A model generated the notes under the pieces. That model did not search any database, was not told the DNA's origin, and saw only the letters and a list, made by a program, of their open reading frames with translations. Shown piece after piece: positions 18,686 to 22,875 of a stretch of 64,000 nt of DNA; the stretch's first letter is position 1; every line of letters begins with the position of its first letter. Origin of the DNA: Halolamina pelagica (GTDB lineage Archaea; Halobacteriota; Halobacteria; Halobacteriales; Haloferacaceae); contig NZ_LGUC01000001.1 in assembly GCF_001307315.1 (NCBI RefSeq), positions 744,001 through 808,000 of the forward strand, given 5' to 3'. Both the position numbers and the translations under genes were made by a program.

Positions 18686-19324
18686 CTACTCCAGCGCGCC
18701 GTCGAGGAAGTTCCCGATCACGTCGTGGCCCACCGCCGTCAACACCGACTCGGGGTGGAACTGCACGCACTCGATGGGGTGCTCCCGGTGGCGGACGCCC
18801 ATCACTAGCTCTTCGGCGTCGCCGTCCTCGGGGTCGTCGACGGTCGTCGCCGTCACCGTGAACGCGCCCGGAACGTCGGTCGCGACCAGCGAGTGGTAGC
18901 GACCGGCCTGGAACCCTTGTTCGAGCCCCTCGTACACGCCCTCGCCGTCGTGCTCGACCGGAAACGCCTTCCCGTGGATCGGCCGTGGGGCGTGACCGAC
19001 CTCGCCGCCGTACTCGTAGACGGCGGCTTCGAGGCCGAGACAGACCCCGAGCGTCGGAACGTCGGGGCTGACCTCGCGGAGCACGTCCATCGTCAGGCCG
19101 ACGTCGCGCTCGTTCTTGGGGTGGCCCGGGCCGGGACTGATGACGACCGCGTCCGGGTCGATCTCCTCGACCTGCTCGAGCGAGGCCGTGTTCCGCAGGA
19201 CGACCACCTCGGCGTCGGGTGCGCCCTCGCCGACGTACTCGACGAGGTTGTACGTGAACGAGTCGAAGTTGTCGACGAACAGCACCGTCGGCGATTCGTC
19301 GGCCGCCGCCGTCGGCGTGCTCAT
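18686..19324 (-). CDS. trpG: Anthranilate synthase component II (glutamine amidotransferase)
   Basis: Releases ammonia from glutamine for TrpE. The 212-residue class I amidotransferase has nucleophile Cys95 in TLGVCLGLEA, and His190/Glu192 in QFHPESVLT complete the triad. The usual His after GVCLG is Leu here, a small deviation next to the active site. N-terminal ADESPTVLFVDNFDSFTYNLV is typical. It is the last gene of trpDFEG; its start overlaps the trpE stop by 4 nt (ATGA). Confidence 0.94.
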   Translation of the reverse strand: MSTPTAAADESPTVLFVDNFDSFTYNLVEYVGEGAPDAEVVVLRNTASLEQVEEIDPDAVVISPGPGHPKNERDVGLTMDVLREVSPDVPTLGVCLGLEAAVYEYGGEVGHAPRPIHGKAFPVEHDGEGVYEGLEQGFQAGRYHSLVATDVPGAFTVTATTVDDPEDGDAEELVMGVRHREHPIECVQFHPESVLTAVGHDVIGNFLDGALE

Positions 19325-20961
19325 GGGTCACCTCCTTCGATCCGTTCCAGCGCGTCCAACACGCCGCGGACTTTCTGTTCGGTTTCCTCGTACTCGCTTT
19401 CGGGGTCGCTGTCGGCGACGACGCCCGCACCCGCACGGACCCGAACCGCGTCCGACTCGTCGCCGTCGCCGTGTTCGACCGTCGCGGTCCGGATCACGAT
19501 CGCCGTGTCGGCGTCGCCGGTCCAGGAGAAGTAGCCGACGCCGCCGCCGTAGACGCCCCGCGGCTCGACTTCGAGCTCGTCGAGCAGCTCCATCGCCCGG
19601 ACTTTGGGCGCGCCCGTGAGCGTGCCGGCGGGGAACGCCGCCCGGGTGGCGTCGAACCCGTCGAAATCCGGTGCGAGCCGTCCGGTGACGGTGGACTCGA
19701 TATGCTGGACGTGGCTGTACTTGAGCACGTTCATGAACTCCTCGACGCGCACGCTGCCCTGTCGAGAGACCTGCCGCACGTCGTTTCTGGCGAGGTCGAC
19801 CAGCATCGTGTGCTCGGCGCGCTCCTTGTCGTCGGCGAGCAGTTCGCCCGCGAGGCGGCGGTCCTCGACGGGGCTGGCGCCGCGGGCGGAGGTGCCCGCG
19901 ATGGGGTTCGAGACGACGCGCTCGCCCGTCACCGAGACCAGCGTCTCCGGGCTGGCGCCGACGACCGAGCGGTTCCCGAAGGAGAGCAGGTACATGTACG
20001 GCGAGGGGTTGACCTCCCGCAGCGACTCGTACAGGCCGAGCGCATCGAGATCGCCCTCGATCTCGTGGCTGCGGGAGACCACGCCCTGGTACACGTCGCC
20101 GTCGAGGACGTGTTCCTGCATCTCGGCCACCGCGGCCTCGTACTCCTCGCGGGCGCCGGCGGTCGCGCGCTCGCGGTCGAACCCACCGGGATCGGGCGTG
20201 CTGGCGACTGCGAGATCGGCGGCGACGGACTCCGCTTCGGCGACGAGTCGGTCGTACACCGCGCCGGCGTCGTCGCCCGCGGCGACGACCGGCGTGAACA
20301 CCAGCTCCACGGTGCCCTCGCGGTCGTCGAAGGCGAGGGTCCGGGTCGTGAGCACGAACTGTGCGTCGGGGACGACGGGGTCGGGCCTGTCGACGCCCAC
20401 CTCCGCGAGGTGGAGGTCGTAGACGGCGTCGTACGCCAGGAAGCCGACCAGCCCGCCGTCGAGCCGCTGGCGGTCGCTCGCCTCGAAGCCGACGCGCTCC
20501 ACGTCCGGGAGCGCGAGTCGCAGCCGATCCAGCGTGTCGGGGTCGTCGAGTTCGGTTCCGCAGGCGCCGACTTCCGCGCCCGCCGCGGCGTCGACCCCGT
20601 CGAGGAAGCGCGCCGCGGGGCCGAACCCCTGGACTTCGGTCCGGTCGGGGTACACCGAGACCAGCGCCTCCGGGTCGTAGCCGACGAAGGAGAAACGCGC
20701 GTGGCGGTCGGCGTCGCCGTCGCCGGCGGCCGGATCGGTGTGGCCGTCCGCGGGGGCGAACGCGCCCGCCGGGTCGCTGGATGCCACTTTCTCGGCGCTT
20801 TCGAGCAGGAACGTGTGGTCGCTGCGGTCCGAGAGCGCGGCGTACGCCGACAGCGGCTCGGTGTCCACGTCGAGCGTCGCGGTGAGTCGCGCGACGGCGG
20901 GGCCGTCGGCCTCGGCGAGCAGCGCCTCGAACTCGTCTCGAGAGTGGTCGAACGCCGGCAT
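19321..20961 (-). CDS. trpE: Anthranilate synthase component I
   Basis: Makes anthranilate from chorismate with TrpG, the first committed step to tryptophan. 546 residues. The chorismate-binding C-terminal half shows DVYQGVVSRSHEIEGDLD, NPSPYMYLLSFGNRSVVGASPE, NPIAGTSARG and FPAGTLTGAPKVRAMELLDELE. The N-terminal half contains the region that binds feedback tryptophan. The start at 20961 overlaps the trpF stop by 1 nt and its end overlaps trpG, so the operon is translationally coupled. Confidence 0.95.
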   Translation of the reverse strand: MPAFDHSRDEFEALLAEADGPAVARLTATLDVDTEPLSAYAALSDRSDHTFLLESAEKVASSDPAGAFAPADGHTDPAAGDGDADRHARFSFVGYDPEALVSVYPDRTEVQGFGPAARFLDGVDAAAGAEVGACGTELDDPDTLDRLRLALPDVERVGFEASDRQRLDGGLVGFLAYDAVYDLHLAEVGVDRPDPVVPDAQFVLTTRTLAFDDREGTVELVFTPVVAAGDDAGAVYDRLVAEAESVAADLAVASTPDPGGFDRERATAGAREEYEAAVAEMQEHVLDGDVYQGVVSRSHEIEGDLDALGLYESLREVNPSPYMYLLSFGNRSVVGASPETLVSVTGERVVSNPIAGTSARGASPVEDRRLAGELLADDKERAEHTMLVDLARNDVRQVSRQGSVRVEEFMNVLKYSHVQHIESTVTGRLAPDFDGFDATRAAFPAGTLTGAPKVRAMELLDELEVEPRGVYGGGVGYFSWTGDADTAIVIRTATVEHGDGDESDAVRVRAGAGVVADSDPESEYEETEQKVRGVLDALERIEGGDP

Positions 20962-21620
20962 CAGGCGGTCCCCGTCTCGGCCGTCCGACTGGCTTCGCGA
21001 ACGAACGCCCGGAGAGCGTCGTGGGCTTTCCGCCCCGGTTCGTCGGCGCGCTCGACGCCGCTTGCCACGTCGACGGCGAAGGGGTCGACGGTCTCGACGG
21101 CCGCAGCGACGTTCTTGGGTGTGAGCCCGCCAGCGAGCACTAGCGGCGTCGACAGCGCCTCGCGAAGCTCGCGGGTCGCGGCCCAGTCGTGGGTCTCGCC
21201 CGTGCCGCCGGCGCCATCGTCGCTCAGGGAGTCGACCAGCAGCGCGTCCGCGGCGCCGTCGAGATCGCGCGCCCGGTCGGGTTCGTCGGCGTCGAGGGCG
21301 ACGATCACGTCGACGCCCGCACGCTCGCGGATCTCACGCACCTCGTCGGGGCTGAACTCGCCGTGGATCTGGAGCGCGTCGGGGTCGACGCGGTCGGCCA
21401 CGTCGACGGCCCCACCGACGCTCTCGGGGATCGTGACGGCGACGGTCGTGACGAACGGCGGCACCGACGCAGCCAGCGTCGCTGCGCGCTCGGGGATCAC
21501 TTCCCGCGGCGTGTCGACGCCGACGTCGGTGATGAACCCCAGCGCGTCGGCGCCCGCGTCGACGGCGGCACGCACGTCCGCGTCGGTGCCCAGCCCACAG
21601 AGCTTCGTTCGAACCATCAC
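20961..21620 (-). CDS. trpF: Phosphoribosylanthranilate isomerase
   Basis: TIM-barrel isomerase of tryptophan synthesis; 219 residues. The N-terminal [22 protein letters not shown] carries the catalytic Cys, and the catalytic Asp lies in the LLVDSLSDDGAGGTG region. The phosphate-binding segment LVLAGGLTPKNVAAAVE is followed by VDVASGVERADEPG. Its start overlaps the trpD stop by 4 nt. Length is normal. Confidence 0.94.
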   Translation of the reverse strand: MMVRTKLCGLGTDADVRAAVDAGADALGFITDVGVDTPREVIPERAATLAASVPPFVTTVAVTIPESVGGAVDVADRVDPDALQIHGEFSPDEVREIRERAGVDVIVALDADEPDRARDLDGAADALLVDSLSDDGAGGTGETHDWAATRELREALSTPLVLAGGLTPKNVAAAVETVDPFAVDVASGVERADEPGRKAHDALRAFVREASRTAETGTA

Positions 21621-22625
21621 TCCGCCTCGACCGGCTCGCCACAGAGCGCGTCGAACTTCTCGGCCGCCGCGCCGTCGTCGATGGACTGGGCGGCCGTCTT
21701 GACGCCCTCCCGGAGATCGTCGGCGAGCCCGGCGACGTAGATCGCGGCGCCGGCGTTGGCGAGGATCACGTCCCGTTTCGGCCCGGTCACGTCGCCGGTG
21801 ACGATCCCGCGGAGGTCCTCGGCGTTCTCTTGGGGGTGCCGCCGGCGATGGCGTCGACGGGCGCGCTGTCGAGCCCCAGGTCGTCCGGGGTGAGGGTGTA
21901 CTCGGTAACCTCTTCGCCTTCGACTTCCGCGACCGTCGTCGGCCCGTGGAGCGCGATCTCGTCCATGCCGTCGCCGTGGACGACCAGCGCGTGCTCGACG
22001 GGCATATGGGTCAGCGCGTTCGCGACCAGGGGCACCAGCTCCTCGCTGTAGACGCCGAGCACCTGCGCGTCGGCGCCCGCGGGGTTGGTCAGCGGCCCGA
22101 GCACGTTGAAGATCGTCCGCATCCCGAGCTCTTTGCGCGGGCCGATGACGGCCTTCATCGCGGGATGGAACACGGGCGCGAGCATGAAGCCGATGTCGTC
22201 GCGCTCGATCGCGTCCTCGACGGCGGGGGTTCGGCCTCGACGTCGGCGCCGGCCACTTCGAGCACGTCGGCGCTCCCCGAGGAGGAGGAGACCGAGTAGT
22301 TGCCGTGCTTGGCGACGGCGACGCCCGCCCCGGCGGCGACGATGGCGCTGGTCGTGGAGACGTTGATCGTGCTGTAGTCGTCGCCGCCGGTGCCGCAGGT
22401 GTCGACCAGCGGCCCGCCGTCGGGGTCGATGGTGCGCGCGGCGTCGCGCATCCCCTGGGCGAAGCCGGCGATCTCGGCCTCGGTCTCGCCTTTGGCCCGA
22501 AGTGCGGACAGCAGCGCGCCGATCTGTGCCTCCGTCGCCTCCTCGAAGACCAGCGTCGCGGCCGCACGGGCCTCGTCGACGCTCAGGTCCTCGCCGTCTG
22601 TCACGCGTCGGATGAGTTCCTGCAT
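21617..22625 (-). CDS. trpD: Anthranilate phosphoribosyltransferase (two apparent frameshifts)
   Basis: Adds phosphoribosyl to anthranilate. As written, the gene is broken at the G runs 22225-22229 and 21832-21836 (plus strand). Adding one base to each gives a continuous protein of about 336 residues: [19 protein letters not shown], the PRPP loop [36 protein letters not shown], then [34 protein letters not shown], and the C-terminus ending [14 protein letters not shown]. First gene of trpDFEG, with its own promoter 30 nt upstream. The breaks are most likely base-call errors. Confidence 0.93.
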
Positions 22626-22641
22626 GGATGGGGGATCCGAA

Positions 22642-22667
22642 TGTACGGATTGGGTGTATAGTGTACA
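22642..22667 (-). promoter_or_regulatory. trp promoter with TGTAC operator-like pair
   Basis: On the coding (minus) strand, ACTATACAC, a probable TATA box, is centred about 30 nt before the trpD ATG at 22625. It is flanked by TGTACA (22662-22667) and TGTACG read on the plus strand (22642-22647), spaced 20 nt, two helical turns. TGTACA is the consensus TRP box of the methanogen repressor TrpY. No trpY homologue is visible in this window. Confidence 0.55.
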
Positions 22668-22800
22668 ACTTTGTTCATCGACTTAAGGCTGTCGCGAGAC
22701 TGGAGCACACGGCGGCGGCGCTGAATCACCTGCCGGAGCCGACTTTCGAAAGCTTCAACTAAGCCCGCGGGGTATCTGTGAGTGCGAAGTAAGCCCGGTC

Positions 22801-22875
22801 GGGTTGGTAGTCTAGTCCGGTTATGACACCTCCTTGACATGGAGGAGGCCGGCGGTTCAAATCCGCCCCAACCCA
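22801..22875 (+). tRNA. tRNA-Val (anticodon GAC)
   Basis: Acceptor stem GGGTTGG (22801-22807) pairs with CCAACCC (22868-22874), with discriminator A at 22875. The anticodon arm CCTCC-TTGACAT-GGAGG gives anticodon GAC, and the T arm is GGCGG TTCAAAT CCGCC. 75 nt, no intron, no encoded CCA. It marks the left edge of an accessory-looking stretch. Confidence 0.95.

Follow-up and report, generated by a model that had tools for sequence, protein, structure and literature searches.

A 10-bp-phased array of TGTAC boxes before trpD as a probable TrpY operator of tryptophan genes in haloarchaea

We propose that the trpDFEG operon of Halolamina pelagica has an operator phased at 10 bp, in which two TGTAC motifs before trpD form the second and the last box and to which dimers of a TrpY-family protein would bind with tryptophan, repressing both trpDFEG and trpCBA; we put the probability of this reading at roughly 0.8. 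The window analyzed is a stretch of 64,000 nucleotides (contig NZ_LGUC01000001.1, positions 744,001 to 808,000). In the proposed mechanism, TrpY-family dimers would sit next to one another on the boxes at high tryptophan, and the array, extending from below the TATA element to beyond the start site, would block either the recruitment of RNA polymerase or the start of transcription. With spacings in multiples of 10 bp, identical contacts would all point to the same side of the helix, which is what one expects of protein dimers bound next to each other. TrpY would also act at an equivalent array before trpCBA, giving a tryptophan regulon of two operons. TrpY as the binder, tryptophan as its ligand (here a co-repressor) and repression as the effect are components of the proposal that we infer from sequence and from related systems.

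The forward strand carries TGTACG at 22642-22647 and TGTACA at 22662-22667, with a start-to-start spacing of exactly 20 nt, just as a preliminary description of the window had placed them. Read on the trpD (minus) strand, the pair becomes TGTACA (22667-22662) and CGTACA (22647-22642), preceding the trpD ATG at 22625-22623. Judged from the window alone, the pair is modest evidence and moderately surprising: there are two instances of the pattern TGTAC-N10-25-TGTAC where 0.15 would be expected, and TGTAC itself is found 92 times, compared with the 34 predicted by dinucleotide shuffles, an excess across the window that is probably due to codon usage. The strong evidence is comparative. We located trpD in 138 of the 146 genomes of the haloarchaeal order and read 130 upstream regions, the window's own included. 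At least one TGTAC/GTACA site is present in the 90 bp before trpD at 128 of these 130 loci, compared with 21 of 260 control windows. Pairwise distances between sites are 10 (61 pairs), 20 (23), 30 (65) and 40 bp (2), so that all 151 are multiples of 10; these pairs are not independent events, the sequences being related, and the sample spans about 16 families. Motif and spacing, the loss of which in relatives had been named beforehand as the result that would speak against an operator, are thus both kept upstream of trpD. One genome, G040, carries a second copy of trpD (G040:C39:84531-84917) with a box array at 84921-84945, which suggests that this genome may have a second regulated trp cluster.

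An ungapped profile of 59 columns, built from the 130 trpD upstream regions, has the consensus CGACACG-CTTAAG-tcga-TGTACg-gatt-TGTaCA-ttac-AAgaCG-aaac-cGTACA-TTGGTG. In the window, all of the following elements are read on the minus strand. A BRE-like element, CGACAG, occupies 22689-22694 (profile positions 0-5, with C, G and A conserved at 86-96%) and is followed by a TATA-like CTTAAG at 22682-22687 (positions 7-12), the probable TATA box of the trpDFEG promoter, in which TTA is conserved at 94-97% and the variants are CTTAAG, TTTAAG and GTTAAG. Box 1, at 22672-22677 (positions 17-22), is a degenerate TGAACA (consensus TGTAC[A/G]); its identification is supported by an intact TGTACA in two congeners, TGTACAaagtTGTACA in G146 and TGTACAgagtTGTACA in G147. 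Box 2, TGTACA at 22662-22667 (positions 27-32; G and CA are 98-99% conserved), is 10 bp from box 1. The last box, in slot 30, is CGTACA (TGTACG on the forward strand) at 22642-22647 (positions 47-52, where C and A reach 98-99%); it is separated by 30 bp from box 1 and by 20 bp from box 2. The window's array therefore has boxes at 0 (degenerate), 10 and 30, in the regular phase expected of TRP boxes in a trp promoter region. The earlier idea of a TRP-box operator holds in that the array is conserved and phased, but the pair on which it was built was incomplete, lacking the degenerate third box.

The arrangement of the promoter differs from that first described, in which the two boxes flanked the TATA element and trpD was leaderless. 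The sequence between the boxes, CTATAC (22656-22661), reads TTACAA, CTACAA or TTGTAA in relatives, and the conserved TATA-like element is CTTAAG, upstream of all boxes. The distance from this element, together with a conserved A, places the probable transcription start region at 22652-22661, with the start itself at about 22657; CTATAC falls within this region, as does profile position 37, an A conserved at 99%. Start sites usually fall about 27 bp downstream of the TATA centre, from which we infer a trpD leader of about 32 nt. Such a short leader is probable from the TATA-to-ATG distance and from a GGTG that is conserved just before the ATG in relatives. The operator thus begins shortly after TATA and probably continues beyond the start site. 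It could be argued that the TGTAC repeats simply reflect the core promoter and leader (initiator, ribosome site) instead of a repressor site, given that the BRE/TATA elements, the near-invariant A and the GGTG are conserved as well.

The array before trpC makes this core-promoter reading improbable. It has the form CTTATGTACA-N4-(c/a)GTcCA-N4-TGTACA, with boxes at 0/10/20 and the ATG within a few nt; in H. pelagica it is TGAACAgttcCGTACAttagTGTACA, within C1:325256-325286, and all 19 exact box pairs before trpC are spaced by 10 or 20 bp. The boxes of trpC stand in a different register to TATA and the start codon from those of trpD, which argues that the core promoter is not what sets the phase of the boxes, and in Methanobacteriales the boxes lie around TATA. 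What stays constant is the phase, and the core promoter shifts.

The specificity of the array is equally informative. We used two models: R1, a sequence-only model of the trpD array run on 30 relatives (E≤1), and R2, a model of the trpC array. R1 matched in 27 of the 30 relatives, essentially at the trpD operator only. R2 found a site in 95 of 99 genomes; where the position of trpC was known, the site was directly upstream of it in 10 of 11 genomes (the G009 site is just beyond the end of trpC), and 12 of 16 secondary matches were trpD operators. A model from one trp operon recognizes the sites of the other operon and almost nothing else in the genome, so the array is not a general promoter feature. 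Two weak R1 matches were set aside. One, TGTACAGATCTGTACA in G147, has a cystathionine/methionine-type gene on one side and a probable ABC transporter on the other, and we considered it unrelated; at L205:1501-1516 it forms a perfect 10-bp box pair, seen in one congener. The other, TGAACAAACTTGTTCA in G149, is a TGAACA...TGTTCA palindrome (L171, around 1501-1521) whose target gene is unclear and which resembles boxes 1 and 2 of the window's genus.

Near-confinement to trp operons also bears on which protein binds. The main rival reading is that the array is the operator of some other aromatic-amino-acid regulator, for example the Lrp-type LrpA2 (Trh1). Lrp-type proteins often use phased multiple sites, which would suit this reading. 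LrpA2 (Trh1) is an Lrp/AsnC regulator of haloarchaea and, like TrpY, an amino-acid-responsive HTH protein; in H. salinarum, expression of LrpA2 rises 14.9-fold when aromatic amino acids are lacking, and this Lrp protein has been suggested as the regulator (PMC4162585). We nevertheless consider this reading unlikely. Arrays found almost only at trp operons are more in keeping with a regulator dedicated to tryptophan than with a broad one, and both the box sequence and the 0/10/30 phase match the trpY-trpE region of Methanobacteriales, in which TrpY is encoded beside the boxes.

Action of the conserved element in RNA, as an attenuator or leader structure, would be conceivable since TGTACG and CGTACA could pair. 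Using RNAalifold on 60 diverse sequences, we found no consensus structure and zero pairs, and on this ground the RNA-structure reading was rejected. In addition, boxes 1 and 2 are upstream of the probable start site, and the trpC array ends a few nt before the ATG. The absence of a predicted RNA structure favors a DNA operator, and we regard a role in RNA as very improbable indeed.

The genes that the operator would control follow on the minus strand. The first gene of trpDFEG, trpD (21617-22625; anthranilate phosphoribosyltransferase, Pfam PF02885 and PF00591), is succeeded by trpF (20961-21620; PF00697, E 2e-32), trpE (19321-20961; PF00425 and PF04715, with TIGR01820 over cut-off) and trpG (18686-19324; PF00117, E 2.7e-45). 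The frames of trpF, trpE and trpG are open in the window, whereas that of trpD is broken in the assembly by about two frameshifts (near 22220 and 21840) with stops in translation; most relatives' trpD genes have open frames of 325 aa or more. With an estimated genome completeness of 79.9%, the frameshifts look like assembly indel errors, but trpD may be a true pseudogene. Upstream of trpD, a tRNA-Val (gac) is encoded at 22801-22875 on the forward strand, and a near-identical sequence occupies the same place in G152 (L161).

A search for a TrpY homologue, which the preliminary description had recommended, was successful. The genome encodes its own TrpY-family HTH-ACT protein at G000:C1:434236-434724, which scores 228 bits over positions 1-163 of 163 against NF053754 (NCBIfam, TrpY family transcription regulator; cut-off 180). 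Members of this family are single-copy and over cut-off in 139 of the 146 genomes of the haloarchaeal order, and are present in all 121 of its high-quality genomes. The H. pelagica protein shares 39% identity with a Methanobacteriales TrpY that is encoded divergently from trpE, with conserved residues across both domains. In the DRR stretch of the HTH region, D54, R55 and R56, together with T61, do not vary among the haloarchaeal, Methanobacteriales and f19 sequences compared; in the ACT region, the protein has the SIRQ...DP stretch in common with Methanobacteriales TrpY. The C-terminal ACT-like ligand domain (PF01842) scores E 8.9e-5 and 22.6 bits, which is under the Pfam cut-off of 27; the Methanobacteriales TrpY also falls under this cut-off. 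In the f15 lineage (G015 and G030), the TrpY protein and the R2 site are both absent and the trpD of G015 has no array, in genomes that are only 76-78% complete. Across the phylum, TrpY-family genes are nearly universal (83 of 90 over cut-off), which makes co-occurrence of TrpY with the array weak evidence.

The trpY gene of H. pelagica is about 330 kb from trpD and adjoins hisA/hisB, unlinked to trp. Within L293:765-3867 (G000:C1, about 432264-435366), trpY follows hisA and hisB, from which a single ORF on the opposite strand separates it, and a UPF0029 gene comes next; a hisB-like C-terminus precedes trpY in several other families too. We found no box array upstream of trpY, either at this gene or at the other haloarchaeal trpY promoters read, so that autoregulation as in M. 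thermautotrophicus is not indicated.

For comparison, we reached genomes of Methanobacteriales via one Methanobrevibacter record from a 16S-probe scan. In many of these genomes a 167-aa ORF is divergent from trpE, and the two examples scanned match NF053754. The trpY-trpE intergenic region carries TGTACA-type boxes in 0/10/30 phase, with a TATA box (tttaaata) between the boxes of the trpE promoter. Two individual trpE promoters serve as examples: that of L233 reads TGTACA-TATACA-...-aGTACc, and that of L262, a locus in which we saw no divergent trpY, reads TGTACA-aaaa-aGTACA-...-aGTACA. The haloarchaeal system thus resembles that of Methanothermobacter thermautotrophicus in having TGTACA boxes before trp genes and an HTH-ACT regulator of the same family, with the DRR and SIRQ stretches in common. 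It differs in that there are two separate operons (trpDFEG and trpCBA) with boxes downstream of TATA, and in that trpY is unlinked and without a box array; the layout in which a trpY divergent from the trp operon shares its boxes was not found in the H. pelagica genome.

Among the other Halobacteriota, in-phase arrays occur in 4 of the 20 trp regions sampled, at most 2 kb upstream of trpE, with 0 matches in the shuffled or Markov sequences that served as controls. They stand ahead of trpDFE (G177, G186), trpC (G165) and trpE (G207). Like the haloarchaeal arrays, these precede the first trp gene, here in 0/10/20 or 0/20/30 phase, in genomes with a TrpY-family protein, and the G177 array is likewise downstream of a TATA-like element. 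Their boxes are more degenerate than those of haloarchaea, and most of the sampled non-haloarchaeal regions (16 of 20) gave no array passing the threshold.

Tryptophan-dependent repression by TrpY is the best explanation of these data, because TrpY of M. thermautotrophicus has been reported to bind TRP boxes and repress the trp genes with tryptophan (PMC6737238) and because H. salinarum induces both of its trp operons when aromatic amino acids are missing (PMC4162585). The evidence is not all on one side. According to a recent paper (PMC13147458), which cites Large et al., 2007, the trpCBA promoter of H. volcanii is not tightly regulated. In Thermococcus, the TrpY homologue does not bind the trp promoter specifically and does not regulate trp (PMC6737238); the archaeal control of aromatic operons there is exerted by Tar (TK0271), which is an activator and not a TrpY protein. 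The near-universal gene, the small number of non-haloarchaeal arrays and a trpY that is unlinked and without boxes are also points against TrpY. On balance, the haloarchaeal system works like the TrpY/TRP-box system and probably is one, as suggested by a protein that passes the family cut-off and by boxes that match in both sequence and phase.

We found no description of TRP boxes in haloarchaea in the literature searched, which included few subscription papers, and an earlier report may exist. A 2019 study of Thermococcus stated that functions were not estimable for branches that include the haloarchaeal TrpY homologues (PMC6737238). Our proposal would extend the known TrpY system to a lineage in which its function had not been assigned, and would link a nearly universal haloarchaeal protein to two particular operons as its predicted regulon, with the boxes exactly located. 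TrpY and phased TRP boxes may even be an ancestral tryptophan switch of Methanobacteriota and Halobacteriota, in which the 10-bp phase was kept while TATA and start site moved and the operon split, an idea that we judge equally likely to be right or wrong. If it is true, the protein array through which TrpY acts would be the same although its place in the promoter differs.
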